Assembly: GCF_011694815.1 (NCBI RefSeq)
Contig: NZ_CP050177.1
Span: 5,744,001-5,808,000 of the forward strand
Reading direction: 5' to 3'
Origin: Streptomyces liangshanensis
GTDB lineage: Bacteria; Actinomycetota; Actinomycetes; Streptomycetales; Streptomycetaceae
DNA: 64,000 nt
The translations under genes were made by a program, and so were the position numbers. Below are positions 7,065 through 49,979 of the stretch, in pieces. Position 1 is the stretch's first letter; every line of letters starts with the position of its first letter. A model generated the notes under the pieces. That model was not told the DNA's origin and did not search any database. It worked only from the letters and a program-made list of their open reading frames with translations.

Positions 7065-7078
7065 ACCGGGCGCCGTGA

Positions 7079-7132
7079 CGGGTGTGGCGGAGTCTTCGCG
7101 TAGTGGCCTTGTAACGGACTCCGCCGCGCCCG
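7079..7132 (+). terminator. Hairpin terminator after the maltose/amylase genes
   Basis: An imperfect 16-bp stem (7079-7094 with 7117-7132; core GGCGGAGTC/GACTCCGCC) begins 15 bp after the amylase stop. Large GC stems without a U-tract are typical of Streptomyces terminators. Confidence 0.6.
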
Positions 7133-7165
7133 TGTGAACCGCCCCTGGCGGGAAATCAGTCAGGT

Positions 7166-7855: not shown

Positions 7856-7897
7856 CCGACCGGGCGGCCGGGGTACGGGAGGGGCCCACCGGCCGGG

Positions 7898-8611
7898 TCA
7901 CGGGACGCGCTGACCCGGCAGCCGGGTGCCCAGCCCCATGAGCCGGCCGAGCAGGTCGCCGAACGGGCCCTCGGCCGGCTCGTCCGCGACGATCCGCAAC
8001 AGGATCTCCGCCATCTCCGCGTCGTACGCGGCGCTCACCGCGGCGAGCGCCGCGAAGTCGTGCACGAGCTGCAACTCCAGCTCCCCGCGCGGGATCACCC
8101 GCCCGTCGAGCCAGATCAGCGCCGTCGACTCGGCGAGCGACACCCAGGACCGGACGACCAGGTGCAGCCGCGCGGGCGGCGTCGTCACGTCCAGGTGCGC
8201 GAGGATCTGCTCGTACGCCGCCTGCCGCACCTCGTCGATCATCGCGTTCGCCGTCGAGGAACCCACCGCGGGACCCCCGCGCATCAGCGCGGAGAAGCCG
8301 GGACCGTGCTCGTCGACGAAGTCGAAGAACCGCCCCATCACCCGCAACAGCCGGGCCCCGAGCGGCCCTTCCCTCGGCTCGACGAACCGCTCCGCCAGGT
8401 CCTCGGCCGCCCGGCGCAGCGCCGCCTCGTACAGGCTCTGCTTGCCGGGGAAGTAGTGGTAGACGAGCGGCCGCGAGATCCCCGCCGCGGCGGCAATCTC
8501 GTCGATGGAGACGTCCTCCGGGGAGCGGTGGCTGAACAGTTCCAGCGCGACACCGATCAGTTGCCGCTTCCGCTCTTCGACGCCCATCCTGCGGCGCACC
8601 CCGGTCGTCAT
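7898..8611 (-). CDS. TetR-family transcriptional regulator
   Basis: A 237-residue TetR/AcrR-type repressor. The N-terminal helix-turn-helix is clear (ALELFSHRSPEDVSIDEIA followed by AAAGISRPLVYHYFPGKQSLYEAAL, residues about 22-67), followed by an alpha-helical ligand domain I cannot assign to a ligand. It is divergent from the small membrane gene at 8664 with 52 bp between them, so it probably regulates that gene or itself. Confidence 0.88.
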   Translation of the reverse strand: MTTGVRRRMGVEERKRQLIGVALELFSHRSPEDVSIDEIAAAAGISRPLVYHYFPGKQSLYEAALRRAAEDLAERFVEPREGPLGARLLRVMGRFFDFVDEHGPGFSALMRGGPAVGSSTANAMIDEVRQAAYEQILAHLDVTTPPARLHLVVRSWVSLAESTALIWLDGRVIPRGELELQLVHDFAALAAVSAAYDAEMAEILLRIVADEPAEGPFGDLLGRLMGLGTRLPGQRVP

Positions 8612-8663
8612 ACGAACAGCCTAACGGGCACGCTCCCCGGGGTGTCGATTACGCTGCCGGTCC

Positions 8664-9056
8664 ATGACCTCATCTGACCCGGACCAGCCGACAGAGACAC
8701 CCGCCGAGGCTCTTGGCGACACTGTGGCTGAGGATCCGGCCGAGGATCCGACTGAGGACCCGGCCGAAGACCCGGCGGAGGATCCGGCCGAGGATCCCGC
8801 ACCCGGCCTGACGCCCCGTCAGGCGCGGGCCCTGCGGGTCACGCTCGCGTCGGCACTGCTGGTGGCGATGGCCGTGCTGCTGGCCGTACGGCTGGCGGAG
8901 CGCACGTCGGTCCTGGTGGTCGGGGTGTACGGGCTGGCGATGGTCCTGTGCGGTGTGGTGATCGAGCTGAGCCGCAACGGCCGTACCCGCCTGGGCACCT
9001 GGCTGCTCGCGGCGTGCCTGCTGTCGGCGCTGGGCGCGGACTGGCTGCTGCCGTAA
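8664..9056 (+). CDS. Small membrane protein with acidic AEDP repeats
   Basis: A 130-residue protein of unknown function. Residues about 22-45 are six consecutive four-residue units (AEDP, with one TEDP), giving a strongly acidic cytosolic arm; after LTPRQARALR come three hydrophobic segments. It is divergently paired with the TetR gene. The three-membrane-segment core resembles a widespread Streptomyces hypothetical family; the repeat arm looks lineage-specific. Confidence 0.75.
   Translation: MTSSDPDQPTETPAEALGDTVAEDPAEDPTEDPAEDPAEDPAEDPAPGLTPRQARALRVTLASALLVAMAVLLAVRLAERTSVLVVGVYGLAMVLCGVVIELSRNGRTRLGTWLLAACLLSALGADWLLP
8727..8798 (+). repeat. In-frame 12-bp tandem repeat coding (A/T)EDP x6
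   Basis: Six 12-bp units of the form GCC-GAG-GAT-CCG with synonymous drift (GAA/GAC variants, one ACT) encode the acidic arm of the membrane protein. Perfect phasing with the codon frame means unit gain or loss would change arm length without a frameshift. Confidence 0.85.
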
Positions 9057-9122
9057 GGCCCCGGGGTCACCGGAGCCCTTGGCGTCAGCGCGGCACCGCA
9101 CGCCACCGAGGCGCCCCCGGCG

Positions 9123-11090
9123 TCACCGCAGCGCCCCCACCGAGGTGCCGTCCGCCACGACCCCCTTCAGCTCAGCCCGCGCGCCCGCCGAGGCCCGTAC
9201 CGCCAGCAGGCGGCCCTTCGAGGTGCCCTTCACCCCGCCCGACACCTCCAGGGACCTGAACTCCTCGCTGCCCGCGGCCAGGACGTACCAGTGGCCCGCC
9301 CGCGACTTCCAGAGCACCCCGGCCAGCACCTCGCGCGGCCCCCGGGCCCCGCACGCGAGCGAGTCCTCGGCGCGGGCCGCGATCGCCCCCGCCGACGCGG
9401 GCCTGGTGGAGGAGGGGGCCTGGAACTGCGCCAGCACCCGGCTCCCCGTGCCCCGCCAGGTCTCCGCGCGGGTGCACAGCCAGTCCGCCGTGCCGTTCGA
9501 CTCGGGCAGCTTCTGGCCGGCGAACGCCCAGGAGTTCACCGACCGCACCCCGTGCGAGCGGACCGTGGGCAGCAGGCACGCGGTCCTGGCCCACGCGGCC
9601 CGGTCCCGCGCGCTCCACACGTCCGAGGGGGCCGACGGCGGCCCCGCCGTCAGCCGCGCCGGGGTCAGCTCGCCGAGGTCCGTGAGCAGCCGGTCGTGGG
9701 ACCCGTCCCGGATGTCGAGGGTGTCCCAGGAGCCGCAGTCGCGGGCCGTCGCCGGGCTGTCCATCGGGTCCGTCACCCCGTCCGCGTCCCGCGCCAGCGG
9801 CCTGACCGGGGTGGCGGGGTCGCGCAGGTCGCGCACGGACGTACGGGTCACCCAAGGCGCCGTCAGATAGCGGACGTTGCTGTCGGAGCGGCCCACCACC
9901 AGCGCCCCGGAGGCCGCCGCGTCCGCGCCGTCGACCCGGGCGAAGTCCAGCCCCGCCGCGTCGCCGCCGTCCGCCGGCTCCGCGTACCGCACGACCCGCA
10001 GGCCGTCGTACAGGAGCACCACGCGCGCGGCGTCGACCCGGCCCGCGTACAGCAACTGCGGTGATCCCATGGGCGGTCCCGAGGGGGTCCCCGGGGTGGT
10101 GGAGACCTGGACGGTACGGCCGGGCCGCGCCCAGACGGCCAACGCCCGCCGCAGCAGCCCGGTGTCACCGGCCAGAGCGCCGCGGGTGGGCCAGGCGGAG
10201 AAGTCGGTACGGGCGGAGGTCTCCCAGAAGGTGGGGGCGACCCGGCGTACCTTGGCCGGGTCCAGGGCGGACTGGGCCATGGGGTTGCGGGCGTACGAAG
10301 GGGCCGCCGCGCTCCCGGGGCCCCAGCCGTCGCCCGGCAGCCCGAGCAGGGTCCCGCAGACGAGCACGGCGGCGGTCGCCGCGAGGGCCGCCTTCGCGTG
10401 CTGGCGCCTGCGCATCAGGTCGGTGGGCCTGGCCTGGAGCGAGCAGGGGTCGAACTCGGCCGACCGCAGCAGCGTGCCGCTCTCCGGCGTCCCGGCGGCG
10501 ACGGCCTCGGCGAGCGCCCCCGCCGGGTCCTCGGCCCCGGCCGCGGCGAGTGCGCGCTGTACGTCGGCGTCGGCCAGCCCTTCCAGGCCGCGCAGGACGA
10601 ACGCGGCCCTGGCCGGCCCGGAGAGGGCGGACAGCCGCTGGTCGAGGGCGAGTTCGTCGGCGCCGCCGGAGCGCGGGAAGAGCCGCAGCCCCCAGACGTG
10701 CGGGAGCACCGGCGGGAGCTGGGCGCGGCGGGGCCTCGCGAGGCGCAGGAGGGGGCGGCCCGCGTCGAGGGCCTGGCGCAGCACGCGGGCGCGTACGTAC
10801 GTGTAGCCGGGGTCGCGTGCCCCGTCGGAGCCGCCGCCCGCCCGGCGCGGGGCCGGGAGGACGCCCTCGACGGCCGCGGTACGGCCGCGGGGCAGCGAGC
10901 GCTGCACGAGGGCGTGAGCGGTCAGGACGCGCCGGTTGCGGCCGAGCGACGGGGGGAGGACGAGATAGGCGATCCGTACGAGACGGGGGTAGTGCTCGAC
11001 AAGCGCCGCCTCGGCCTGGTCGACGTCGACGGGACCGCCGGGGGCGGAGGTGGCGGGGGCGGTGGCGGTGGCTGAGTCCTGTGGGCGCAC
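9123..11090 (-). CDS. Membrane protein with N-terminal sigma-factor-like segment
   Basis: A 655-residue protein. Residues about 24-200 resemble a decayed ECF-sigma arrangement (ALVEHYPRLVRIAYLVLPP near the start, LSALSGPARAAFVLRGLEGLADADVQRALA further on), followed near residue 235 by one membrane segment (AKAALAATAAVLVCGTLLGL) and a large, probably extracytoplasmic C-terminal domain with paired cysteines. No enzyme motif is recognised. The layout, DNA-binding-like part inside and sensor-like part outside, resembles other actinobacterial sigma-like membrane proteins, but function is unknown. Confidence 0.75.
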   Translation of the reverse strand: MRPQDSATATAPATSAPGGPVDVDQAEAALVEHYPRLVRIAYLVLPPSLGRNRRVLTAHALVQRSLPRGRTAAVEGVLPAPRRAGGGSDGARDPGYTYVRARVLRQALDAGRPLLRLARPRRAQLPPVLPHVWGLRLFPRSGGADELALDQRLSALSGPARAAFVLRGLEGLADADVQRALAAAGAEDPAGALAEAVAAGTPESGTLLRSAEFDPCSLQARPTDLMRRRQHAKAALAATAAVLVCGTLLGLPGDGWGPGSAAAPSYARNPMAQSALDPAKVRRVAPTFWETSARTDFSAWPTRGALAGDTGLLRRALAVWARPGRTVQVSTTPGTPSGPPMGSPQLLYAGRVDAARVVLLYDGLRVVRYAEPADGGDAAGLDFARVDGADAAASGALVVGRSDSNVRYLTAPWVTRTSVRDLRDPATPVRPLARDADGVTDPMDSPATARDCGSWDTLDIRDGSHDRLLTDLGELTPARLTAGPPSAPSDVWSARDRAAWARTACLLPTVRSHGVRSVNSWAFAGQKLPESNGTADWLCTRAETWRGTGSRVLAQFQAPSSTRPASAGAIAARAEDSLACGARGPREVLAGVLWKSRAGHWYVLAAGSEEFRSLEVSGGVKGTSKGRLLAVRASAGARAELKGVVADGTSVGALR

Positions 11091-36915: not shown

Positions 36916-37135
36916 GGTTTTTCCCTTCTGGCTTTCTTCGGCCGTCTCACGGCTTTCGTGAGCGGCTGATGGCCATGGTGCCCGCAGCGCGAGGTGAGTT
37001 GCTGGGGCAGAGCTGAGCGGAAGCTGAGTCCGGTCTGAGGGCGCGAAGGGGCATTCGCGTGTGACGCCGCAGCTGAGCTGCGCACACTGGTTGTGGGGTA
37101 CGCCGCTCAGAGCGTCGAAAAACGGAGGGAGATCC

Positions 37136-39922
37136 GTGGAAGAGGGGGTCTTAGAAGGCCGTGTCCTGGGGCCGGTGAACGCCAAGGGCCGCGGCGGGAC
37201 GCTCAGCGGCTCGATGCGTCTGGCGTTGTTCGCCCTGTTGGTAATGGCGGAGGGATACCGGTGTTCGGAAGATCAGATCATCGAGGCGCTGTGGCCTGAG
37301 AAGAGGGAAGGAGGTCGTCGTCGCGTCCACCGACTGGTGTCCGACCTTCGGGACGTTTTCGGGAAGGGCGCGGTGATCAACGAGGGGCGGGGCACCTATG
37401 TGCTGATCGTCAAGTCGATGAGCCTGGACGTCCTGAGGTTTCGCACAGGAGTGCGGGAGGCTCGCGGCCTTCAAGGACGGAAGCGCTTCGATCGACTCGT
37501 GGAGGCGCTCAATGAATGGCCCGCAGGGGCAGAGGCGTTGCACGGGCTCGTCGGCCGCCCCTTCGCCCTCCTCAGGGAGAACCTCATCAACGAACGGATG
37601 CACGCCCTGCATGACCTGCTGGAGACGGCCTGGCAAATCCGCGAAATCGAATGGCTCCGCGCTGAAACACAGAAATGGATTCGCGAAGCGCAGGACGACC
37701 CGACGATTTTTCGCTTCTACCTGAAGGCTCGATCCGGTGACAAGTCGAGCAGGCAAGAGCTAAAAACAATGATGAGAAAGTGGCGAAAGAACAACGGGGA
37801 TCCTGACGAGGAGCTCCGGCGGGCAATGGACACTGTTCTCGGAAGGGTATCAGCGGTCCGTCGCTCCTTTGAACCGGTGCCCGACCAGCTGCCCCGGGAA
37901 GGGCGGACTCCGCGAGGGCAGGATGATCTTTTAGAGGAAGTCGAATCCCTTGTCAAGGCTCGTCTGGCTTCTGGGCGAGGCGCGTCGATCGCCGTCAGCG
38001 GCATGCCTGGTGTGGGTAAGTCAACTGTTCTGCTGAACCTCGCCTGGCGGCTGAGGAGTAAATTCCCCGACGGCGTACTCTACTTCAACATGCGGGGGTT
38101 CTCGGGAGCGGATGTCCGGCCGGCGACAACCGAAGAGGTCCTGGACTCCTTTCTCGCCGCGCTGCCGCCCTTCATGTCAAATGGTAGTTGTGAGGCCAAG
38201 AGCGGAGCATTTCGGTCCCTCGTGGCTCAACGGGCCATGCTCATCGTGCTGGACGATGTCCGCAATGCCGAGCAGATCCTCCCCCTTCTTCCCGGTACCG
38301 GGTTGAGTACGGTTCTCGTCGCCAGCCGGCAGAAGCTCGCGGGCCTGCAATCCCTTCAGGAAGTGGAGTTCCGCACGGTCGAGCCTCCGGAGGAGGCGGC
38401 GGCGCTGGAGATTCTCTGGCAGTACGTCCCGGTCTCCGATCGTCGAGGTCATGAGCAGGCTTTCGTTAACCTCGTCCGTTTCTGTGAACGGCTTCCCCTC
38501 GCGCTCGTCATCCTGGCCTGGCGTTTGAGGAATCTGCCGGTTCGCGCTGTTTCTCGGTTGGCCCAGGAGATGGAGGACGAATGCAGCAGGCTCGACCATC
38601 TGGAGCACCCCTCAGAACGCTCTGTGATGACGGTTCTCCAATGCTCAGCACGGCTTTTGTCCCCTGCGGCACGGCTTCTCCTACGGCGATTGAGCGTCCA
38701 TCCGGGGCCGACCGTCCGCTGGGAGGCGGTGATGCACCTCAACTCGGGTGAATCGGAGATGAACAGCAGCCGAGCCCTGGAAGAGCTAATTGAGGCCAAT
38801 CTTGTCGAATGTCAATCAAAAAGGTTCCGCCTCCACGATCTGGTGAGATCCTTTTCCCGTCACCGCATGGAACTGGATCTTTCAGATTCTGTGATCGATT
38901 TCGAGAAGAAGACTGTTCTCAATATTCTTGAGTATCAATTGCACTGCATTCGGTCCTGCGACAAGGTACTCAACCCCCGCCGTGTGCTACCGATCGGTGA
39001 ACCGGAAGGATTTGGCGTGTACGTGCCGGAGAGTCGTGGAGAAGCCATGTCATGCCTCGACGAGGAATATCCGGCGGCGTTGCCCTGTATTGAGCTGGCG
39101 CACGAGTGGAAGTCGGAACGCCATATGTGGATGCTGCCGATGGCCCTAGTCGCGTATCAATGGCAAAGGAACCGTCTGTCCGATGCAATGAAGTGGCTCA
39201 GGATGGCAGTGGATACCGCAGAAACCTTCGCATCGGCCCCGGACCTGGCCATGGTTCACAGAATGATTGCCGGAACACAGTGGCGCTCCAAGCAGTTCAA
39301 TCTCGCTGAGAGCACGCTGCGTCGTTCCATCGCGCTGAGCAAAGATGACGAAAGTGCGGCCGGGCGATTGAGTCTTGCGCATTCCTTGCAGGCCTATGGT
39401 GTTGCGCTGCGCAAGAAGAATCAGCAGGTTGAGCACACGGTCGGCAACGAAGCAGTTGACGGAGGATCTCTGGGATGTTTCCAGTGGGCTCTCAGTCTTT
39501 TTCGTGAACTTTCGGATCGTGCGGGGGAAGCGGCAGCTTTGAATGGATTGGGAACACTTCACCACGACCGCGGCGAGTACGACGACGCGCTGAGAATCTG
39601 TGCGGAAGCTCTGCGTGTCGTCGAGTCGACATCGGATCGGGCGGGGTACGCCAACACGCTTTGCACGCTTGCGAAGATCCATGTTTCTCGGGCGGAGCGG
39701 GAGGAGGCATTCGATCTCTACCGCAAGTCCGCGGCCGTCTACCAGGGAATTGACGACTGGGCCGGCGAGGACGATGTCCTCTGTCGTTTCGCGGACGCCT
39801 TGGTGATGGACGGCCGAATTGCCGAGGCGGAGGCCGCACTCGAACGCGTACTGGCCCTCAGGGAACGTATGGGTACCGCGGACGTCGAGCAAGTCCGTTC
39901 CAGGCTGGAAGGGTTACGGTGA
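37136..39922 (+). CDS. SARP-like wHTH / NB-ARC / TPR regulator (NLR-like)
   Basis: A 928-residue protein with the layout of AfsR-type regulators. Residues about 1-95 are an OmpR-like winged helix (MRLALFALLVMAEGYRCSEDQIIEALWP). A degenerate BTAD-like helical part follows. The NB-ARC ATPase has Walker A GMPGVGKST with Lys295, Walker B MLIVLDDV and the RLPLAL (GLPL-like) motif. TPR-like helices run from about 640 to the end. GTG 37136 is chosen because GGAGGG lies 6 nt upstream. Third positions are less GC-biased than in the flanks, and codons 6, 266 and 927 are TTA, implying bldA dependence. It probably controls the neighbouring operon, or senses invaders as a STAND ATPase. Confidence 0.85.
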   Translation: MEEGVLEGRVLGPVNAKGRGGTLSGSMRLALFALLVMAEGYRCSEDQIIEALWPEKREGGRRRVHRLVSDLRDVFGKGAVINEGRGTYVLIVKSMSLDVLRFRTGVREARGLQGRKRFDRLVEALNEWPAGAEALHGLVGRPFALLRENLINERMHALHDLLETAWQIREIEWLRAETQKWIREAQDDPTIFRFYLKARSGDKSSRQELKTMMRKWRKNNGDPDEELRRAMDTVLGRVSAVRRSFEPVPDQLPREGRTPRGQDDLLEEVESLVKARLASGRGASIAVSGMPGVGKSTVLLNLAWRLRSKFPDGVLYFNMRGFSGADVRPATTEEVLDSFLAALPPFMSNGSCEAKSGAFRSLVAQRAMLIVLDDVRNAEQILPLLPGTGLSTVLVASRQKLAGLQSLQEVEFRTVEPPEEAAALEILWQYVPVSDRRGHEQAFVNLVRFCERLPLALVILAWRLRNLPVRAVSRLAQEMEDECSRLDHLEHPSERSVMTVLQCSARLLSPAARLLLRRLSVHPGPTVRWEAVMHLNSGESEMNSSRALEELIEANLVECQSKRFRLHDLVRSFSRHRMELDLSDSVIDFEKKTVLNILEYQLHCIRSCDKVLNPRRVLPIGEPEGFGVYVPESRGEAMSCLDEEYPAALPCIELAHEWKSERHMWMLPMALVAYQWQRNRLSDAMKWLRMAVDTAETFASAPDLAMVHRMIAGTQWRSKQFNLAESTLRRSIALSKDDESAAGRLSLAHSLQAYGVALRKKNQQVEHTVGNEAVDGGSLGCFQWALSLFRELSDRAGEAAALNGLGTLHHDRGEYDDALRICAEALRVVESTSDRAGYANTLCTLAKIHVSRAEREEAFDLYRKSAAVYQGIDDWAGEDDVLCRFADALVMDGRIAEAEAALERVLALRERMGTADVEQVRSRLEGLR

Positions 39923-39958: not shown

Positions 39959-40861
39959 TTACAGGGTGGGTGCGTTCGCCAGATAGTACTGGACGGGGTC
40001 TGGACGCAGTGGTTTCGCCGATCGTCGCGAACCGGGCACCGGGATCAGCGGACGCAAGGCGTCGAACACCGCTTTCATCGTGGGCGGGCGCAGATCCTTG
40101 TCGCGCTCGACCATGCTCAGGGCCAAAGGGCGAATGCGGGAAGGGATCTGCGCGAGGCGGTCGGCCGGCAGGACAGCGTGCTCTTCAAGTAGCCGTTCCT
40201 CGGTACCACCGTACGGCACGCGCATCACCGTCATTTCCAAGAGCATCACGCCCAGGCCGAAGATGTCCGCCTGACCGGTCAGTCCCTTCCCCTTCGGATT
40301 CCCGTCGTACTGCTCGGGGGCCATGAAGCCTGGGGTGCCCCGTGAGAAGTGGAACTCTGTTCCCATGGCAATACCCAGGCCCATATCGATCAGGCGGACC
40401 CGTCCGTCATGTTCCACGATGACGTTCTCCGGCTTCACATCGCAGTGTACGAGATTGAGGGCGTGCACGCCGTGAAGGATTTCGCACAATTGCCCGATGA
40501 GTGCGGCAACGGTCCCTAGATCCTTGACGGGGCGCACGCTCTCCACAAGGCCGGCGAGGGGGACACCGTCCACGTATTCCATGACGATGCACCGCCGTCC
40601 CCGATACAGGCCCCGGGCAAAGACATCGGGGATACCGGGAACCGCACTCAGTTCCTCATTCCTGTCTCCCTCTTCGAACAATTCTCTGCCGAGGCTCATG
40701 AATCGAGCGTGCGACTCGGAGTGCCAAGGGGGCTGGACCTTGACCGCCATTCTCCTGCCACTGGCGCGTTCGATCGCGACGAAGAGCAGTCCCTGACCAC
40801 CGCGCCCGATCTCACCCTGGACGTTATAGCGGGTCTCGATGTCCATCAGTTCCTCAATCAC
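39959..40861 (-). CDS. Soluble serine/threonine protein kinase
   Basis: A 300-residue Hanks-type kinase domain and little else. Visible motifs: GEIGRGGQG glycine loop, MAVKV with Lys41, HCDVKPEN with catalytic Asp141, metal-site LIDMG (Asp159, Met in place of Phe of DFG), GTPGFMAPEQ. There is no membrane segment and no PASTA domain, unlike PknB-type kinases. GTG 40861 has AGGAG 6 nt upstream. It converges on the NLR-like gene with 36 bp between and diverges from the nuclease operon by 84 bp. Probably a signalling part of the island. Confidence 0.88.
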   Translation of the reverse strand: MIEELMDIETRYNVQGEIGRGGQGLLFVAIERASGRRMAVKVQPPWHSESHARFMSLGRELFEEGDRNEELSAVPGIPDVFARGLYRGRRCIVMEYVDGVPLAGLVESVRPVKDLGTVAALIGQLCEILHGVHALNLVHCDVKPENVIVEHDGRVRLIDMGLGIAMGTEFHFSRGTPGFMAPEQYDGNPKGKGLTGQADIFGLGVMLLEMTVMRVPYGGTEERLLEEHAVLPADRLAQIPSRIRPLALSMVERDKDLRPPTMKAVFDALRPLIPVPGSRRSAKPLRPDPVQYYLANAPTL

Positions 40862-40945
40862 ACCTGTCTCCTTCCGGTCGCCATGCTCGGCGGCCTTCGA
40901 CCTCTTGATAGAGCACAGACCACATCTTGGATGATCGGAGTGACG

Positions 40946-42511
40946 ATGATTGACTCATGGTTTCCCCCTGACGGTGTGCAGTGCACCTCTGACGTCATCA
41001 CAGTTGCGGCCAGCATGTTCAAGGCGAGGGAGTTCCGCTGTCCGGCCGCTGACGCGCTCAAGGCGCGGGGCTGTCGTCCGGCCCAACTCGGTTCACACCG
41101 TCGGGAACTGCTACAGCATTTCCCCCTGGGCCCGTTCATGGCCGCGTGCGACGGGCACGCCGGCTTGCCTTCTACGCCCCCAGGACGTCCGTCCCCGCCG
41201 CTCCACGAAGGGCTGCGCGTGTGGACCGAACACGCAGTCGCTGCCTACCGCGCCGCCTTCGCCGACGACGCCGACCGCACGCTTGGCGACGACGCGTCGC
41301 CGTGGGTCTACCGGCATCGCCCGACCACGAGGGATCAGCGCGGAGCGCGTGAGTACCGCCTCACTGTGTGGGGGAGGCGGCTGCGGTCGGCCGACGGCAG
41401 TGTGTGTGAACTACGTTTGCCGGTAAACCGCTTACATAGTGAGCCCCCGCCTGCCGCCTTCGTCGCTGTCGCCGCTCTGGTGCTGGCCGAAGGGGTTCGG
41501 GAGCCTCTGCCCGAGCGCGTGCGGATCATCGAGTTCGCGCTGCTCGACGGGCGTACGCGAGTCCTCGCCGACGATACGAGGGACGAAGCACTCGCCCGGT
41601 ATCGGGAGCACGGACCGGCCGCGCTCACCGCCGTCCTCGACACCCATGAGTACCGACCGGGTCCGGTCTGTGTCGACTGCCCGTTCCTCGCATCCTGCCC
41701 TGCGGTGCGCAAGTCGACAGGCCTTCTCGGCGTCGCGAGCGAGGGCCGGCCGCGCCGTACCTGGTCCGTCACCAACGGCCGCAACTACCGGGACTGTCCT
41801 GCGCGCGACCACATGCGACGCCTCCACCTGCCAGCGGCGGACTCCATCGAACGGGGGAGCGCGGCCGAACGAGGACGGGCCATCCACACCTACCTCGCCG
41901 ATCGCCACGGGCGTGGCGACGCACGTCCTTGCACGGTGGACGTCCCAGCGCACTGGGTGCCGGAGGGCTACGACCTACCGGCGTCCGAACGCGATCTCGG
42001 TGCCACACTTCTCCGCCGCCACGCCGCCGTTTGCCCCCTCCAACGCATCGGCGACATGACGGACGTCAGGGTCGAGCCCCGAGTGGTCCGACACGACACC
42101 GCCGCGGACATCCTGGTCCTGGCCGTACCTGACCTGCTTTACCGGGACAACGCATCGTGGGTCTGGCGCGAGACCAAGACCACGGCCACCACGCCGTGGG
42201 CCGGGCGGCCGTTGTTGGAACGATATCCGCAACTGGCGCTTGCTGTGATGCTGCTGGCACGGGGCGACCTGGGAGGAGAGCCGCGGCGGGCACGGGTCGA
42301 ACTGGAGGTGCTGCGGCCCGATGGCGCGGATCTTGAGATCATCGATCCGTTCGCGCCCGCCACCCGCGCCTCTGCGGGGCGAATCATCACCGCACTGGTG
42401 GCCGGGTGGTCCGGGGACGATCACTACGCTCCCACCCCAGGACGCGCGTGCCGGCGTTGCGAAGTGGCGCAGTGGTGCACCTCGGCGGCTTCCCTGGAAG
42501 TGACCGAGTGA
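40946..42511 (+). CDS. Tandem Cas4/AddB-like Fe-S PD-(D/E)XK nuclease
   Basis: A 521-residue protein. The C-terminal half is a RecB/Cas4-type nuclease: Cys284 (YRDCPAR), GRAIH with His314, VPDLL with Asp396, RETK with Glu409 and Lys411, and a CX2CX5C cluster (Cys502, 505, 511) that with Cys284 would hold a 4Fe-4S. The N-terminal half repeats the layout: FRCPA with Cys32 and CX2CX5C at Cys242, 245, 251, but has no ExK (ELR at 155-157), so it looks inactive. ATG 40946 is preceded by GGAG at 5 nt. It opens the pPIWI-RE operon and couples to the next gene via GTGA. Codon 163 is TTA. Confidence 0.82.
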   Translation: MIDSWFPPDGVQCTSDVITVAASMFKAREFRCPAADALKARGCRPAQLGSHRRELLQHFPLGPFMAACDGHAGLPSTPPGRPSPPLHEGLRVWTEHAVAAYRAAFADDADRTLGDDASPWVYRHRPTTRDQRGAREYRLTVWGRRLRSADGSVCELRLPVNRLHSEPPPAAFVAVAALVLAEGVREPLPERVRIIEFALLDGRTRVLADDTRDEALARYREHGPAALTAVLDTHEYRPGPVCVDCPFLASCPAVRKSTGLLGVASEGRPRRTWSVTNGRNYRDCPARDHMRRLHLPAADSIERGSAAERGRAIHTYLADRHGRGDARPCTVDVPAHWVPEGYDLPASERDLGATLLRRHAAVCPLQRIGDMTDVRVEPRVVRHDTAADILVLAVPDLLYRDNASWVWRETKTTATTPWAGRPLLERYPQLALAVMLLARGDLGGEPRRARVELEVLRPDGADLEIIDPFAPATRASAGRIITALVAGWSGDDHYAPTPGRACRRCEVAQWCTSAASLEVTE

Positions 42512-43692
42512 CCGGCACGCCGGGCCGTCGCCGGACTCGCCGCACCGACGCCAGGCTGGACGTCGAGGGTGGTGTCGCGCTGTTCGCCGAACTCGCGTCG
42601 GTCATCTACTCGTTGACCGAACTTCGCAACTTGCGATCCTTCACACTGCCCTATCCGGCCATCTCCCAATTTGCCTTCGACCGCACCGTTCTGCGGTGTC
42701 TGCAACTTGGCCAGCAACCCCCGCGGAGCATTGCCGAACTGCTGGAATGGTGCCGCCACAGGTCTGCTGACAGCCCGCTGTTCGGCGTGCCCTCCGATCT
42801 CGTTACACCGGATGCGACGCTCGTGCACCCGGTCGGGTTGATGCCAACCCGCACGTGTCTCGAAGTCGCCTCCTACGAGAGGGAGGACGGTCCGGAGAGG
42901 GAGGCACTTGCTCTCCTTGACGAGCTTGCCACCCGGTGCGGTTCGACGGACAGGTACCGCGCCTGCCGGAGTTTCCTCCAGCGCCATCCGATGGTAAGCG
43001 GAGGAGCGCGGTACGAGACAGGGTGGAACAGAAACGTCTGGACTCGGGTCAAGACCTTGTACGAGCCGGTCCCGGAGTCCTTCCTGGCAGGCGGATACCT
43101 ACTGCGCTGCCCGGCTTGCGGGCTGCCGGCCCTCCTTGGTGACCGGAGAGTTCCCGATCAGGGGCCGCCCTTCAGCGGCGACGACACCTGGTGCGAAGGG
43201 GAGACCTGCCGGAGCCCCCAGCCATTCGAAGTGATCCACGAACCGGAGAAGACCTGGATTCTCCGGCGATCCTTGCGCACCTTCCTCGCCCTGCCACATC
43301 GAGTGGAGGAGAGTGCTCTCGCCGAGCTTGACCGAGCGGGCATCGAATGCACACTCCTGACGGACGACCTCGCCGCCTACCGGCTGAGCGGAGCGGGCCC
43401 TGGAACCCGAATTCTTCAGTTCCGTAACCGGATACAGCCCGCGCTACTGGCAGCCGGTACGGGCCGGTGCGCCGAATCCCTTGCCGCAGATCTGACGGTC
43501 GTGGCGGTTCCGAGGCGTTTTGCGGAATGCGGCCAATACCGTGCCGCGTTCTTCGCGGCCTTACCGAGGCACGTCGTACAGCAGGTGAGACTGACCCATC
43601 CCCACGACATCGCGCGCTGTGTCCGCGCTCCCCTCGCCGGCAGTTCGCCCCAAGGGCCGACAACAGGAAAGGCTGATGGCGACGATGCGTAG
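42508..43692 (+). CDS. pPIWI-RE-associated zinc-ribbon and REase-like protein
   Basis: A 394-residue protein of the pPIWI-RE three-gene module. The start is GTG 42508 overlapping the upstream stop. Residues about 30-180 form a helical domain resembling the module's domain Y. A zinc ribbon follows (Cys201, Cys204, Cys229, Cys234). The last 130 residues (TWILRRSLRTFLALPHRVEESALAELDRAG onward) match the REase-like domain of the family, but where active members have a DxK core this one reads ILQFRN (Gln304-Phe-Arg306), so DNA cleavage by this domain is doubtful. Codon 352 is TTA. Identification is from family pattern memory, not a search. Confidence 0.72.
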   Translation: MTGTPGRRRTRRTDARLDVEGGVALFAELASVIYSLTELRNLRSFTLPYPAISQFAFDRTVLRCLQLGQQPPRSIAELLEWCRHRSADSPLFGVPSDLVTPDATLVHPVGLMPTRTCLEVASYEREDGPEREALALLDELATRCGSTDRYRACRSFLQRHPMVSGGARYETGWNRNVWTRVKTLYEPVPESFLAGGYLLRCPACGLPALLGDRRVPDQGPPFSGDDTWCEGETCRSPQPFEVIHEPEKTWILRRSLRTFLALPHRVEESALAELDRAGIECTLLTDDLAAYRLSGAGPGTRILQFRNRIQPALLAAGTGRCAESLAADLTVVAVPRRFAECGQYRAAFFAALPRHVVQQVRLTHPHDIARCVRAPLAGSSPQGPTTGKADGDDA

Positions 43693-46600
43693 CCTCACAC
43701 CACCCCTACAGGACATTGTCGGCGAGCTCGCCGCGCACCTCGGCCTCAAGACAGCCCGGACGAAACTGGAAGGCCTATGCCAGGTCGAGCTCGGCCTTCA
43801 TCTGCAGAGCAAGCTGATGCCGGGTACTCCCGCGGCCCACGCCTGGGTGCTGTTCAGCGGGTACGGGTTCGCCGAGGCGTACGGTGTGCGGCTTCCGCCG
43901 GACGGGGAGAAGATGCTGCGAGTCGCGCGCTACTCGCTGTGGACTCTCCGGCGCGGACGCGCATGGCGGGAGGCGCTTGAGGAGTATCAGCGCTACGCTC
44001 CCCTGCTGCGCGGTTTCGACGTACAGGATTCCGGGCGCGCCGCCACCCGCCAAGAGATCTCCGTCGCCGCCTCCCGCTGGCGGTGTTACGACCGGTTGCT
44101 GCGGGTGGCGCCGCCGCTCGCCGGCCGACCTCGTCCCGTTGCCCAGCACGGCCCGCACGGTTTCCCCATCAGCCGGTCCATGGCCGTGGTCGACCTGCCC
44201 GAGGTCGCCGCCGGACCCTTGACGGCCCACGACGTCGACATGCTTCCGGCGGGCGACGGGGCACCGCTGCGCTTTCGCATGAGAGACCTGGAGCGCACTG
44301 CCGCCGAAATGGACTCCCTGCACAGGGAAGAGGATCCGCAGCGAAGGCCGCGATGGCTCAAGCGGTTGAAGGACTTCACCATGTCTGTGAGGAAGGACGA
44401 CTCCTTCGCCCCCTCCCGTGAGTTCACCGTGGACGGGGTCCAACATCTGCTCGGCATCGTCGGCGCCGGCAAGAGCACTCTGCGGGATGTCATCGCAGTG
44501 CATCTGGCGAAGCGAGGGCTGCGCACGACAGTTGTCGTGTCGGATGTACCCGATGTCCTCAAACTGGTCCAGATGTACAACCTCTACACCCAGGGCGCAG
44601 CCGCACCAGTCATCGGTTCCTCTAACCGAGAGCAGCACGCACAACGCCTGCACCGCCGTCTGGCCGGACGCGGCGAACACCGACTCCTTGCCCACGACGA
44701 TCCGTCCTTCGCGTTTCTCGGGACATCGTGCGTACTGAACCTGCACCGGCGCAGCGGCCCGGTGGCCGAGCCCCTCGCCTTCGGAGAAGCGCCGTGCTCC
44801 CGTCTGCGTAAGCCCGCCGATCCGAAGCCCCGCAGCGCCCGCACTCCCGAGTGGCAGAGGGATTTGCTGAGTTGTCCGTACTGGTCGGTTTGCCCGCGGC
44901 ATCACGGCTCCCGTGCTTTGGTCCGGGCCGCGATCTGGGTGGCGACGCCGGCGGGGCTTGTCGACGCTTCGCCGCCGCAGGCGCAGAACGCCCAGCGCAT
45001 CCGCTACCTGGAACTGGCCTGCCGGCGCAGCGACCTGGTGATCATCGATGAGGCCGACCGGGTGCAGATGCAACTGGACACGGTCTTCGCCCCCGCCGTG
45101 CTCCTCGCCGGTGACGAGGAGCGGGGCTTCATCGATGTGCTGAGCAGGCACAAGATCCGCGAGCTTGCCGCGAGCGGACGTACCCAGCTCTCCGAGCGTG
45201 ATGTGGAGAACTTCACCGCCGCCCTCAATACCGCCGGCACAGCCACTGACCGGCTGTACGCCATGCTGGTCGCCAGCGACAAGTTGCGCGAGTGGGTCAG
45301 GGTCGGGTACTTCAGTGCCTGGACACTCCAACTCGGTCTGCTCGATGAACGCTACCCGGTGCCCGAGGAGGGCACTTCGGCAGTGCCGTTGCACGCGGAA
45401 AGGGAAGCACTGGGCAAGCTCCTCGACGCCTTCCGCGACAATCCGCTCGGCGACCGTCCCCGGGCGGCGGAAGTCGAGTTCGGTCGGCTCACTGCTCTGC
45501 TTTATGAAATCCTTCACACGGGAAACCCGGATGCGACACGGCAGATCCTGGCGGAGGCAGTGACGGACATCTTCCGCATCGACGAGAAGTTCCTCGCGGG
45601 GAAACAAGAGGAATACGAACGCGAGCGGGTGAAATGGGAGTGCAAGAAGGAGAAGCGGCAACGGGGGAAGAAGAGCGGTAGCGCAAAGGCTCCGGATCCT
45701 CCGGAGACTCCCGATGAGTGGTACAAGGAGCTCGTCAAGCGGTTCGAATTCACCCTGCTGCTGAGCGCACTAGAACCTCGGCTGGCGATGATCAACGCCA
45801 TGTGGCCCAGGGTTCAGTCTGCGCTCTCTCTCGGTTACAACGAGATGTACCGTCGCCCGCTCGACTACGGCCCCATGGTGCCCGAAGCCCCGATGGGTAA
45901 TGTGCTCGGATTTCAGTTCCGTGTGCATGGAAAGGATGAAGGGGGCGTCAGGAGCGGAGAGCTGACGTTCTTCCGATGCAGCGGCGTCGGCCGTGAATTA
46001 CTTCGCGCCCTGCCTCACCTGGCATCGGTCGACGCGCGCCCCGGTGCCCACCTCCTGCTCATGTCCGGAAGCAGCTGGGCCGGGAAGTCCAGTCGCTACC
46101 ATCTCCGCGAGCCGGTGGGCGTGATCATCGAACCGCCGGCCCGGTTGACCGAACGCATTGCTGAGGAAAGCACCATGCGTTTCGAGTTCATCGACGACGG
46201 GGACGAGAGACTGCGCATTTCCGGTAGCGATGTTGAGGAACGCCCCGAAAAGATGCGACGCATTGCCAGTTGGCTGGGGGCGGGGGTCAACGAAGCAGAG
46301 GATGGCGGTCCTCTCGAACGGGAACTGCTCGATCTGCCGCCAGGGCGTGACCAGATCCTGCTGCTGGTCGGCAGCTACGTAGAGGCTCGGCTTGTGGCGG
46401 ACACCCTGCACAATCTCAATTCCCGTTGGCGAGACCGGGTTCTCTGCCTCATCTCCGACGACGAGGAGATCGATGAGGACGACCTGGCCCCTTCCGCGTA
46501 CCGGGCACGCTCGCTGCGGAGAGGCGATGTAGAGCATCTCAAGGATGCCCGGGCGGACGTTTTGGTGGCCCCCCTGCTTGCCGTGGAAAGAGGGCACAAC

Positions 46601-47182
46601 ATCCTCAACGAAGATGCCGAGGCGGCCATCGGCACAGTCTACTTTCTCGCCCGGCCGAATCCCCACCCCGATGACCTCTCTCTGGCGGTACACGCGGTCA
46701 ACGACTGGATCGTGCGCGCGCTCGACAACGGCGACTTCGCGTCCTGGGTGCGCAAGGGCAGCACTGTCGAGGAAGGGGCGGAAGAGGTCCGCAGCATGGC
46801 GCGGTCACGCTGGCACGAGTTGCTTCAGCGGCCCATGGCGTGGAGTCGCCTCGGCGACGACCGCGAACAAGTGACCTGGGACATGCTGGTGTTGATGTGG
46901 CAGGTCATCGGCCGATTGGTACGCGGTGGTGTGCCGGCGCGTGTCGTCTTCGTCGATGCGGCCTTCGCACCCCACCGGGCGTCGAATCCGCCCCGTCCGG
47001 ACACCCCACGGTCCAGTCTGTTGCACAGCGTCCTGGACGTACTCGACCCCTACCTGGTGAACGACAACGAACCTGCCGACCATCGTTTCATCGTCCGGGC
47101 CCTGTACGAGCCGCTGTGGCGGATGCTCAGCCGCTGCCTCGCACAGCCGCCGTCCGCGCCTGACGACTTTCGTACCACTTAG
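43676..47182 (+). CDS. DinG/XPD-type Fe-S helicase of the pPIWI-RE module
   Basis: A 1168-residue superfamily 2 helicase. Walker A GIVGAGKST with Lys266; four cysteines (352, 374, 400, 406, the last two as CX5C) placed between Walker A and the DEAD box as in the Fe-S domain of XPD/DinG; DEAD at 458-461 (LVIIDEAD); motif VI QVIGRLVR at 1076-1083. It would unwind DNA or R-loops for the pPIWI-RE protein. I set the start at ATG 43676 (AGGA 7 nt upstream), overlapping the previous gene by 17 nt. A charged, coiled-coil-like stretch lies near residues 640-680. Codon 775 is TTA. Confidence 0.85.
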   Translation: MATMRSLTPPLQDIVGELAAHLGLKTARTKLEGLCQVELGLHLQSKLMPGTPAAHAWVLFSGYGFAEAYGVRLPPDGEKMLRVARYSLWTLRRGRAWREALEEYQRYAPLLRGFDVQDSGRAATRQEISVAASRWRCYDRLLRVAPPLAGRPRPVAQHGPHGFPISRSMAVVDLPEVAAGPLTAHDVDMLPAGDGAPLRFRMRDLERTAAEMDSLHREEDPQRRPRWLKRLKDFTMSVRKDDSFAPSREFTVDGVQHLLGIVGAGKSTLRDVIAVHLAKRGLRTTVVVSDVPDVLKLVQMYNLYTQGAAAPVIGSSNREQHAQRLHRRLAGRGEHRLLAHDDPSFAFLGTSCVLNLHRRSGPVAEPLAFGEAPCSRLRKPADPKPRSARTPEWQRDLLSCPYWSVCPRHHGSRALVRAAIWVATPAGLVDASPPQAQNAQRIRYLELACRRSDLVIIDEADRVQMQLDTVFAPAVLLAGDEERGFIDVLSRHKIRELAASGRTQLSERDVENFTAALNTAGTATDRLYAMLVASDKLREWVRVGYFSAWTLQLGLLDERYPVPEEGTSAVPLHAEREALGKLLDAFRDNPLGDRPRAAEVEFGRLTALLYEILHTGNPDATRQILAEAVTDIFRIDEKFLAGKQEEYERERVKWECKKEKRQRGKKSGSAKAPDPPETPDEWYKELVKRFEFTLLLSALEPRLAMINAMWPRVQSALSLGYNEMYRRPLDYGPMVPEAPMGNVLGFQFRVHGKDEGGVRSGELTFFRCSGVGRELLRALPHLASVDARPGAHLLLMSGSSWAGKSSRYHLREPVGVIIEPPARLTERIAEESTMRFEFIDDGDERLRISGSDVEERPEKMRRIASWLGAGVNEAEDGGPLERELLDLPPGRDQILLLVGSYVEARLVADTLHNLNSRWRDRVLCLISDDEEIDEDDLAPSAYRARSLRRGDVEHLKDARADVLVAPLLAVERGHNILNEDAEAAIGTVYFLARPNPHPDDLSLAVHAVNDWIVRALDNGDFASWVRKGSTVEEGAEEVRSMARSRWHELLQRPMAWSRLGDDREQVTWDMLVLMWQVIGRLVRGGVPARVVFVDAAFAPHRASNPPRPDTPRSSLLHSVLDVLDPYLVNDNEPADHRFIVRALYEPLWRMLSRCLAQPPSAPDDFRTT

Positions 47183-47192
47183 AGGAGGGCCC

Positions 47193-49979
47193 GTGTACCA
47201 CACTGTTCGATGCCTTGCCTACGAGCCCGATCCGGACCGTGGACCGTGGATGGAGCACCTTCAGGTGCTCCGCCTGGGTGAGGATCTGCACAACGAGCTC
47301 ACTCGACGCTCCGAGGAGGCCAACGCAACCGGTGATCGACCCGGCCGCTTGCCTGTCACCAGGCTGAACAGCCTTCTACAGGCACTCGCGCCGGGCACGG
47401 TGGCCACCGCACGACATGCCGGAAGCGATGGCAGGCTGCCCTGGCTCTATGCCCGCGAAGCTGTGCCCGTAGATGTTCTCGCACCTGTCATCGGTACCTG
47501 GGCGAGCGGGTTGCTCGTCGGCGGCGAAGGCGATGACGACGACGATCTGGAAGAGACACTCCTAACTGAGGGGAGCGCCTCGGGCCCAAGACTCCCGGCA
47601 TGGGAGAACACGACCATCGACCTCACCGAGACGCTGATCTCCGGCGGGGGGACTGCCGAGCCCGAACAGCGTCTTTACAGTCTTCTGCCTGAGCAGATCG
47701 CCTTTCGCCTGGCAGAGCACCCCCTCCGAATCCGTGGAACGATCCTTCGGTTCCGCGTCGTGAGCTCGGCTTCAGGGACGGATCTCATTTCCTGGCCCCC
47801 TCAGCGATACGAGCGCGGAAGGCAGACCTGGTACTACTCGGCACGTCTCAACATCACCGTCCACACGGTTCCGTTCGCACCGCGGTTCCGGGTGCACATC
47901 TCCGCGGGGCTTCGACGATGGGCCACCCGGCTCGACATCCGACCCCGGGAACTCGACGGGTCGACGGTGCTGCTCGACGTACCGATTCCATGGCCGGACA
48001 GCGCGGACCACAGGCGTCGGCTCATGACCAACACACTCGGATACGACCGTAGGAAGCGTGAGATCGCATGGCGGCGGCGCAGCGCCGCGCCCTTGCTTCC
48101 TGAGCTGGACATCCTCCGCCACTACCCGGACGCTGCTGAGCTGTTCGCCTCGCCAGAGAAGTGGATCACAGGACGTGGAGAGGTCGCGGCAGGCATTGTG
48201 TACCACCCGTCCCTGGGGCCTCATGAGGTGGGCGCCGGACTCATGCCGGGGGAGCGAGCGACGCTTGACGCCTGGATCGAGGACGGTCTGCGGCCAGTAC
48301 TCCGCCGAGTGGACGACCTTAGGCGAGTCACCAGACGTAACACACCGACACTGCTGCCGCGTACCGTGAAGAAGGATGAACCGGACACCAGGGAGGCACG
48401 AAAGTCACTGGCGCGCCGGACGGCGCTGGCAGTTGCTCTGAGCGGTCAGTCGCTTGACGTCGAAGTGGTCTGGCAGTCCCCCGAAACACGGGACGCCTTG
48501 CTCGCCGAACTTCCGAGACTCATCGGTCTTCCACCGGGGAGCAATACGGATCGGGAGAAGAAGGTCTGGCGGTGGCGACACGAAGGGATCGACATCACGG
48601 TCCGGACGCGTCCGGCTGGGCCGCTCGTGGCCGCCCTGACTGTTGCCCAGGATCGTGGCCGTCGTCGTTCGGTCAGGCTTGCCGAGGCAGTCGAGGAGAG
48701 GTGCGCGCTTGTCTTGAGCGAGGTCGGCCCACCGTGGGAGGGCATCGGCCTCGTCATCGCCGAGATCGCGGACAAGGGACGGTTCAGCGCCGTTCCGGAT
48801 TCGGATCCCAAGAACGCGCTCCGCCTCGCATGGGCACGGCAGGGGCGTCCGAGCCAGTTCATCAACCTGCCCCAGGAGGACACAGCGGCTGTGGAGCACC
48901 GCGCCCGGTCGACGTGGCTCGACGCCTTCCGGCAACTGGGCGCCGTCAGCCCCCCCGCCCACCGAGTGGGTGCCGGAATCCCGAGTGATCTCCAATACGT
49001 GGCGCTGTGGATGGTGCGCTACACGAGGAAGGGGCCGACGCGGTGTCCCGTACGGCGTCTGATCGCTGTGCGGGTTCGTCCTGGTGGCGGCGGGCTCGGC
49101 GATGTCGATGGCTGGGATGCGGAGCGAGCCGAGTGGGTGCCGTACCGGCAGCTGCTTCTCCAACTGGCCGATTCCGCGAAACCGGAGGAGAGTTCCGCCC
49201 CGGGCAACCGCCTGAGGCAGCCTGCCGGTTCGGCGTCCGACAGTGCTCGCGCTGCCGGGCGGAGCGCTCGATGGCAGGCCCAGACCGAGCGGCAGATCCG
49301 TGAGCTGCTCTTTCAGCTGCGTGAGCGGCCGACCTTGCTGTTGGTCAGCGCTGGAAACTTGCGCCAGCACTGGCCCTACTTGCGCAACGGTGCCTTGGTC
49401 CGTGACTGCCTGGCATTCGGCACGGAGCCGCAACAACGCCACTCCCTCTACGGGGAGGAGCTTCGTGTCGTGGTGCTCCGCGATGCGAACGGCCGGAACG
49501 AAGTCGCCGAGTGGTACGCACACGACGGCAAGGGAAAGGTTGGCTTCGCGGAGGGGGTCTGGGGGACGTCCGACCTTGAGGGCCGAGTCTTCTCGAGTAT
49601 TACCAGCACACCGCACACGGCGGCGAACCTGCCGAGGGGACTCATGAAACTGGTTCCCGCGGAGGGGTCCCGCACAGCCCCGGGCAAGACTGCCTGGAAC
49701 CCGACACAACTCGAAGTGACTGTCCTGGGCTGCCGGTCCCCTCATTCCGAGGAGTGCGGGAACGGAAGCTGCGAGAGCGTCGACAACGCTGCCGAATGGG
49801 CGACGCTGACACATCAGTTGCGTTATCACGACGACTACCAGCCGCTCTCCCGACCGCTTCCGCTGCATCTGGCGCGACTGGCCGGCGAGTACGTACTTCC
49901 TCTCGCCACAGGTGGAGAACCGGCCAAGGCAGGTGACGGATTGGTACGGACCGCGATGGAGGAGCTGGAAACGACATGA
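47193..49979 (+). CDS. pPIWI-RE family protein (Argonaute/PIWI-like)
   Basis: A 928-residue member of the pPIWI-RE branch of PIWI/Argonaute proteins. The C-terminal RNase H-fold region has the branch's hallmarks: PVRRLIAVRVRPGGGG, then VVVLRDANGRNEVAEWY (Arg763, Glu770), EGVWGTSDLEGRVFSSITSTP, and the ending LTHQLRYHDDY then LPLHLARLAGEYVLPL. The first 500 residues are the less conserved N-terminal module. The GTG start has GGAGGG directly upstream and lies 10 bp after the helicase stop. Family members are predicted to use guide RNA to form R-loops on invading DNA; catalytic status here is unknown. Confidence 0.83.
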   Translation: MYHTVRCLAYEPDPDRGPWMEHLQVLRLGEDLHNELTRRSEEANATGDRPGRLPVTRLNSLLQALAPGTVATARHAGSDGRLPWLYAREAVPVDVLAPVIGTWASGLLVGGEGDDDDDLEETLLTEGSASGPRLPAWENTTIDLTETLISGGGTAEPEQRLYSLLPEQIAFRLAEHPLRIRGTILRFRVVSSASGTDLISWPPQRYERGRQTWYYSARLNITVHTVPFAPRFRVHISAGLRRWATRLDIRPRELDGSTVLLDVPIPWPDSADHRRRLMTNTLGYDRRKREIAWRRRSAAPLLPELDILRHYPDAAELFASPEKWITGRGEVAAGIVYHPSLGPHEVGAGLMPGERATLDAWIEDGLRPVLRRVDDLRRVTRRNTPTLLPRTVKKDEPDTREARKSLARRTALAVALSGQSLDVEVVWQSPETRDALLAELPRLIGLPPGSNTDREKKVWRWRHEGIDITVRTRPAGPLVAALTVAQDRGRRRSVRLAEAVEERCALVLSEVGPPWEGIGLVIAEIADKGRFSAVPDSDPKNALRLAWARQGRPSQFINLPQEDTAAVEHRARSTWLDAFRQLGAVSPPAHRVGAGIPSDLQYVALWMVRYTRKGPTRCPVRRLIAVRVRPGGGGLGDVDGWDAERAEWVPYRQLLLQLADSAKPEESSAPGNRLRQPAGSASDSARAAGRSARWQAQTERQIRELLFQLRERPTLLLVSAGNLRQHWPYLRNGALVRDCLAFGTEPQQRHSLYGEELRVVVLRDANGRNEVAEWYAHDGKGKVGFAEGVWGTSDLEGRVFSSITSTPHTAANLPRGLMKLVPAEGSRTAPGKTAWNPTQLEVTVLGCRSPHSEECGNGSCESVDNAAEWATLTHQLRYHDDYQPLSRPLPLHLARLAGEYVLPLATGGEPAKAGDGLVRTAMEELETT

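Follow-up and report, generated by a model that had tools for sequence, protein, structure and literature searches.

Gene Organization and Domain Content of the Locus

A cluster of six genes in the window, the 64-kb stretch of DNA analysed here (bases 5744001-5808000 of a single-contig genome of 7.72 Mb), is read by us, with a probability of about 0.5, as a signalling-gated variant of the pPIWI-RE system, in which the protein of the gene termed here g1 would serve as the working nuclease and which would derive from a restriction-modification-like ancestor. Judged from its sequence, the cluster points to a new form of a system that has received little study and that probably acts against viruses or plasmids.

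Four of the genes lie on the forward strand between positions 40946 and 49979: g1 (40946-42511; 521 aa) encodes a tandem Fe-S PD-(D/E)XK nuclease of the Cas4/AddB type, g2 (42508-43692; 394 aa, GTG start) a protein with a pPIWI_RE_Y domain, a zinc ribbon and a restriction endonuclease (REase) fold whose catalytic motif is lost, g3 (43676-47182; 1168 aa) a pPIWI_RE_Z protein with a DinG-type Fe-S helicase, and g4 (47193-49979; 928 aa, GTG start) the pPIWI-RE protein itself, with X, MID and RNase H domains. The junctions given in an earlier note on this DNA were all exact: g1 and g2 overlap by 4 nt (42508-42511), g2 and g3 by 17 nt (43676-43692), and 10 bp (47183-47192) separate g3 from g4. The operon stands with the four genes given there, but the system is wider than these, as the conserved unit starts upstream at 37061 and takes in two more genes. 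One, divergently oriented to g1, encodes a Ser/Thr protein kinase (39959-40861, reverse strand; 300 aa); the other, AfsR-like and part of the unit in the window's clade, encodes a protein of 953 aa with winged-helix (Trans_reg_C), NB-ARC and TPR domains (37061-39922, forward strand). The 84-bp intergenic region between the divergent kinase gene and g1 (40862-40945) is presumed to be a promoter region.

The identification of g2-g3-g4 as a pPIWI-RE module was borne out by Pfam searches. g2 matched pPIWI_RE_Y (3.9e-35) and g3 matched pPIWI_RE_Z (4.6e-46), while the 928-residue g4 protein, for which the earlier note had called for such a search, matched pPIWI_RE_X (5e-109), MID_pPIWI_RE (2.5e-27) and RNaseH_pPIWI_RE (2.5e-74), all above the cut-off; the three genes follow one another in the order REase, DinG, PIWI with their ends touching. 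In the part of the paper available to us, Burroughs, Iyer and Aravind (2013; PMC3702460) describe pPIWI-RE as a triad whose genes, for REase, DinG helicase and PIWI, keep a strict order, report its REase without an associated methylase, and predict restriction via RNA-guided R-loops. The locus resembles the triad, as set out in that part, in the g2-g3-g4 order, the touching ends, the Y, Z, X, MID and RNase H domains, the Fe-S cysteines of the helicase and the zinc ribbon of g2. Unlike the triad, the window has g1 in front, a g2 that lost its motif, a kinase gene and an AfsR-like gene, and some of its relatives carry a methyltransferase gene.

All four proteins also matched, over nearly their full length, models of PADLOC-DB 2.0.0, namely PprPDDEXK (g1; E 2.4e-170), PprRE (5.6e-87), PprDinG (3e-275) and PprPIWI (0). 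The view that g1 falls outside the described core is correct for the published three-gene module but not for this database, and since PADLOC-DB already names a model for g1, its presence is by itself not new. The kinase and the AfsR-like protein match PADLOC-DB models other than the Ppr-named ones, and a comparison by model names sets the locus apart from the Ppr set, with no Ppr-named kinase, AfsR-like or methyltransferase model among the matches.

The Tandem Fe-S Nuclease g1

Pfam PDDEXK_1 matched g1 over residues 272-511 only (6.6e-21). In the N-terminal half (41039-41701, forward strand) the cysteines C32, C242, C245 and C251 are kept, as they are in 95/95 linked g1 proteins, and in the alignment the residues that we read as catalytic are lost. 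The C-terminal half (41795-42478, forward strand) holds C284, H314, D396, E409-x-K411, Q429, C502, C505 and C511, which we assigned as catalytic site and Fe-S ligands by reading the family motif, and which follow the Cas4/AddB/AdnA-type pattern of H, D, E-x-K and Q placed between one and three cysteines. Fold comparison returned AdnA, AddB, RecE, Argonaute-associated Cas4 family protein 1 (ACE1) and Cas4, a fold of the same Cas4/AddB/AdnA type. In sequence searches of the PDB, the g1 profile gave no match at E 1 or better and the single sequence gave only chance-level matches.

The residues C284, D396, E409, K411, Q429, C502, C505 and C511 occurred together in 94/95 g1 proteins, the exception (L172) being an interrupted gene, so that decay of the site was never seen in an unbroken gene. 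The motif-I histidine H314 (window positions 41885-41887) is replaced by Asp in 20/95 proteins, and in 18 of these cases the REase is intact; we do not claim this change as a loss of activity, since Asp could also bind metal. In the locus of L172 (9298-18197), g1 and g3 are each split in two, and the copy is apparently decayed.

Linkage and Distribution

The RNase H domain of pPIWI-RE was found in 83/297 genomes of the window's family and, in a sample of the phylum, in 6/396 genomes or 2/236 genera. g1 was detected at E 0.001 or better in 48 of the 297 family genomes (44 strong). Of its 48 strong places, 45 show the complete order g1-g2-g3-g4 and two lie elsewhere; at the remaining one (L083) a transposase gene cuts g1 in front of a module of another clade. 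The link between the first gene and the other three, which the earlier note had named as a point to check, was thus present in 46/48 places. Seen from the module, 81 pPIWI-RE loci divided into 45 with four genes, one (L083) with g1 in pieces and 35 with no g1 match. From 104 pPIWI-RE places in the family, 79 and the window were retrieved, the other 24 being mostly partial matches or a duplicate, and one further place came from the phylum sample.

A pattern scan of 84,980 species genomes for g1 yielded 56 loci from at least seven actinomycete families. g2 and g3 adjoined g1 in 56/56 of them and g4 in 55, the remaining locus ending at a contig edge; having been found by patterns of close g1 relatives, these loci are skewed to the window's clade and unusable as a linkage test, for which 46/48 is the unbiased figure. 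The nearest relatives of g1 are from Streptomyces.

In L083 (1459-7039), a DDE transposase gene interrupts g1, and a second transposase-like frame separates g2 from g3. The module of this locus belongs to another pPIWI-RE clade, yet its g1 nests inside the g1 family of the window (support 83), and g1 therefore seems to have moved between modules.

Decay of the REase Motif in g2

The Y domain, the zinc ribbon and a restriction-endonuclease fold are all present in g2 (AF2 model with a pLDDT of 88.7), the REase fold matches being only of middling Z. The zinc-ribbon cysteines C201, C204, C229 and C234 are kept across relatives. The D..D/DxK motif of the REase is absent in the window, and the REase-fold domain (43297-43635, forward strand; residues about 264-376) appears to be catalytically degenerate. 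In PDB searches the g2 single sequence found only chance-level matches, and the best matches of the g2 and g3 profiles (E 0.25 and 0.17, respectively) were neither helicase nor nuclease.

An intact REase motif is a trait of catalysis that only some family members share, and it does not define membership. We scored it in 127 loci with both g2 and g3 present (133 before removal of six duplicates; L094, L096, L097 and L108, whose g2 was not usable, were left out). It was intact in 31/31 loci without g1, almost all of them from one bacterial family; among the loci with g1 it was intact in 39/96 and changed in 57/96, including the window. The proposal that g1 carries the only intact nuclease motif holds for the window, where g2 has lost its motif and g4 shows no Asp in the presumed first RNase H strand, but not for the four-gene form in general, in view of the 39 loci that keep the REase motif. 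The g1 site was intact in 56/57 REase-changed loci, and the exception was again the interrupted gene.

Quick trees, computed without bootstrap and with long branches in both the helicase and the g1 tree, were used to place these changes. In the helicase tree the 95 main g1 loci grouped together with support as a distinct lineage, with L083 apart, which agrees with the suggestion of the earlier note that this may be a distinct subtype. The changed REase motifs correspond to four changes on this tree, or three without the doubtful L043, whose REase retains E-x-K and may be active; they fall on a clade of 51 including the window, a clade of four (L037, L044, L047 and L058), L162 and L043, and none falls in lineages without g1. 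A single origin of the 56 clear losses was rejected (p-AU 0.00065). Of the REase-active branch length, 69% falls in lineages without g1, yet none of these showed a loss, an outcome with a chance of 0.009 for four changes and of 0.029 for three; a Fisher value of 2.9e-10 is blind to kinship and was set aside. Loss of the REase motif in these loci thus depends on the presence of g1, and its repetition only alongside g1 points to an overlapping function of the two proteins.

A hidden nuclease upstream of g2 in the loci without g1 was considered and rejected, because in several of them the gene directly 5′ of g2 encodes an HTH protein and not a nuclease. Upstream sequence reached at least 4.5 kb in 29 of these 31 loci; the two others had 4.0 kb and 2.0 kb. 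In loci without g1, the gene directly 5′ of g2 often encodes a protein of roughly 430 aa that carries an HTH at its N-terminus (L055 12321-13640, L063 625-1971, L079 4524-5810 and others); this family was present in 15/31 loci without g1 and in none with g1.

The g3 Helicase and the g4 PIWI Protein

In g3 the GK, DEAD and QxxGRxxR motifs as well as C352, C374, C400 and C406 are near-invariant, in loci with and without g1. Together with the conserved zinc-ribbon cysteines of g2, this conservation indicates that g2 remains as a protein and not as an enzyme. The g4 alignment, in whose group without g1 a few non-PIWI rows (such as L100, L104, L105 and L108) were ignored, showed several invariant Arg and Glu residues, which may include the absolutely conserved pair behind the family name. 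No Asp was seen in the presumed first RNase H strand, as placed by our reading of the alignment, and loci with and without g1 were alike in this respect. The missing Asp is in line with the remark, in the part of PMC3702460 available to us, that only a subset of pPIWI-RE proteins keeps the RNase catalytic residues. In the PIWI-RE protein of Pseudomonas stutzeri, D525 and D610 act as catalytic residues (PMC10991935). Read from their motifs, both g2 and g4 would be catalytically dead. PDB searches with the single sequences of g3 and g4 gave no match at E 1 or better.

The Upstream Kinase and AfsR-Like Genes

The kinase matched Pfam Pkinase (4.9e-29), and its residues K41, H139, D141, N146, D159 and G161 were invariant in 78/78 proteins. 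Its gene was located within 3 kb of g1 in 57/57 REase-changed and 21/39 REase-intact g1 loci, and in 0/31 loci without g1; 17/38 REase-intact g1 loci of the main clade had no kinase. The AfsR-like protein matched NB-ARC (7.3e-7), TPR_12 (5.1e-18) and Trans_reg_C (2.8e-5), and is a probable STAND-type sensor or regulator. Its gene was present upstream in 51/51 loci of the window's clade and in 0/45 other g1 loci, with a single weak match (21 bits) in the 31-locus group that lacks g1; the P-loop was kept in 50/51, the remaining gene being cut. Both genes occurred in the same order and orientation in all 51 loci, which come from at least five families. A search of the loci with flank proteins found glnA, located on the other side of the operon, beside it in only 7 relatives besides the window's own copy, from which it follows that the kinase/AfsR-like pair is tied to the operon rather than to its location. 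On the same count, glnA was rejected as a marker of a fixed insertion site.

AfsK-AfsR is a kinase-regulator pair of Streptomyces. The pair in the window is like it in that a Ser/Thr kinase adjoins a winged-helix, NB-ARC and TPR protein, and unlike it in that both proteins fall far under the NCBIfam equivalog cut-offs (191 bits against 1430 for AfsR, and 62.5 against 1300 for AfsK).

In L156 (1474-7713) a kinase domain opens a protein of 2079 aa, followed, by our reading, by a DEAD-type helicase, and the gene adjoins an N6-type methyltransferase gene and a four-gene operon. In L157 (7794-9344) a DUF2397 protein is encoded upstream of a kinase-free four-gene operon.

A Methyltransferase in Sister Loci and the Probable Ancestor

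An N6-adenine DNA methyltransferase gene (PF02384) was present near g1 in 24/39 REase-intact g1 loci, in 4/6 REase-changed loci outside the window's clade, in 0/51 within that clade and in 4/31 loci without g1. The whole 64-kb window contains no N6_Mtase-family methyltransferase. In 17 loci the methyltransferase gene pointed towards the kinase gene, which was followed by the divergent g1, the same arrangement that the AfsR-like gene, the kinase gene and g1 have in the 51. The SAM motif was legible in 26/29 methyltransferases and a strict NPPF motif in only 12/29, one of the 12 being a distant gene, so that many of these enzymes may be inactive.

Four loci (L037, L044, L047 and L058) have lost the REase motif and kept the methyltransferase, and two others (L043 and L162) have neither methyltransferase nor AfsR-like gene, which means that the methyltransferase was not simply lost after the REase. 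Three features, namely acquisition of the AfsR-like gene, lack of the methyltransferase and the most extensive REase loss, map to one branch each, so that their association counts as one coincidence of history and does not amount to evidence from repeated events; as the departure of the window's clade is one event on the tree, cause and effect are not separable.

The window's clade probably departed from a restriction-modification-like ancestor. This ancestral form would have consisted of methyltransferase, kinase, g1, active REase, helicase and PIWI; decay of the REase may then have made the methyltransferase dispensable, and its slot would have been taken by the AfsR-like gene. A further-reaching proposal, which we put forward tentatively and regard as more probably wrong than right, is that actinomycetes possess a PIWI-based restriction-modification system (N6-adenine methyltransferase, kinase, Fe-S nuclease, REase, DinG and pPIWI-RE), one widespread branch of which would have swapped modification-based self-recognition for signal-gated immunity. 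Methyltransferase and REase activity would have been given up, the kinase and the AfsR-like NB-ARC protein would decide on firing, and destruction of the target would fall to the Cas4-type nuclease under the guidance of the helicase and of a PIWI protein that does not slice.

Proposed Mechanism and Alternative Explanations

In the mechanism that we propose, the g4 PIWI protein, probably guide-binding and non-slicing, would mark invading nucleic acid of a phage or plasmid, on which g3 would unwind or translocate. g2, no longer a nuclease, would persist as a zinc-ribbon/Y-domain adaptor, and g1, as an Fe-S nuclease of the Cas4/AddB/AdnA kind, would cut the unwound strand. Gating of the system would probably fall to the two upstream gene products, the kinase and the AfsR-like NB-ARC-TPR protein, in that the kinase, by analogy with AfsK-AfsR, may phosphorylate the AfsR-like protein and the divergent effector operon or its activity may thereby be switched on.

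This assignment of roles competes with an accessory function of g1, for example in making or trimming PIWI guides as Cas4 trims CRISPR prespacers, in which case g2 would cut with unrecognised residues or the system would silence without cutting. Such a function fits the presence of g1 alongside an intact REase in 39/96 loci, according to which g1 started with another role, as well as the fact that Cas4 and ACE1 are among its nearest folds; we nevertheless consider it unlikely, given that the REase motif was repeatedly lost only with g1, which points to a shared function, and that the g1 site never decayed in an unbroken gene. The gating role of the two upstream genes would in turn be void if these were ordinary local regulators beside the operon with no part in it. 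Streptomycetes are rich in kinases and in SARP/AfsR-type regulators, and the AfsR-like gene was gained only once, but chance neighbours would hardly be kept in the same order and orientation in 51/51 loci from at least five families, nor would they follow the operon when glnA stays beside it in only 7 relatives, and we hold this explanation to be very improbable.

A third alternative takes the module to act in chromosome maintenance (replication or repair) and not in defence. Deletion of a PIWI-RE gene in Pseudomonas stutzeri altered cell division and ciprofloxacin survival, according to the available part of PMC10991935, and a helicase with an AddB/AdnA-type nuclease resembles end-resection machines. 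The patchy presence of the module (83/297 family genomes, and 6/396 genomes or 2/236 genera in the phylum sample) argues against a maintenance role, and the occurrence of different pPIWI-RE clades within a single family, the methyltransferase and HTH neighbours and the insertion sequences in some copies look defence-like, so that maintenance appears to us distinctly improbable. We retain the signalling-gated defence system with g1 as its nuclease as the preferred reading.

Comparison with Known Systems and Meaning

The closest working analogies are the pairing of an Argonaute with a Cas4 protein (ACE1), DdmDE, to which the likeness is weak, and, for the regulators, AfsK-AfsR. ACE1 (PDB 9iac and 9iab) has 266-269 residues and one nuclease domain, to which g1 adds a second, dead copy. 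DdmD combines helicase and nuclease in one protein. g2 shows a weak fold resemblance to the C-terminal part of DdmD (Foldseek E 0.18), a value that leaves the idea of a split DdmD no more than a lead; unlike the single chain of DdmD, helicase and nuclease fold are here encoded by separate genes, g3 and g2, and the g2 site is lost. The REase-intact sister loci are like Pgl/BREX and MADS in having a kinase and an N6-adenine methyltransferase together, but no core genes shared with these systems were seen, and the window, as mentioned above, is devoid of this methyltransferase family.

In the literature searched, which took in few subscription papers and no preprints, we found no account that places g1, a kinase, an AfsR-like gene or a methyltransferase in a pPIWI-RE module. 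As far as this search goes, three things are new: decay of the REase is tied to g1, the module has a kinase and an AfsR-like protein as partners, and in the sister form a methyltransferase gene occupies the same slot. The prediction of 2013, a methylase-less RNA-dependent restriction, left the sparing of the host unexplained. Among the loci found here, some members of the family stand beside genes for a DNA methyltransferase and a kinase; others are accompanied by a kinase and an AfsR-like regulator and would lack a working REase. The two sister forms make self-recognition directly testable by comparison, and they indicate which of the three possible nucleases (PIWI, REase and g1) to mutate first. 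If the preferred reading is true, the system would be another case of a guide-binding PIWI acting through a recruited Cas4-type nuclease.

Four relatives of g1 located outside the PIWI operon form the outgroup of the g1 family, with 30-34% identity depending on the tool. All four lie in units (L112 9689-13260, L113 9434-13136, L114 about 6119-9956 and L115 7567-11307) that consist of the tandem Fe-S nuclease gene, a gene for a protein of about 267 aa with no Pfam match, and a convergent ImmA/IrrE (Peptidase_M78) gene; the 267-aa partner looks PIN-like to our eye.
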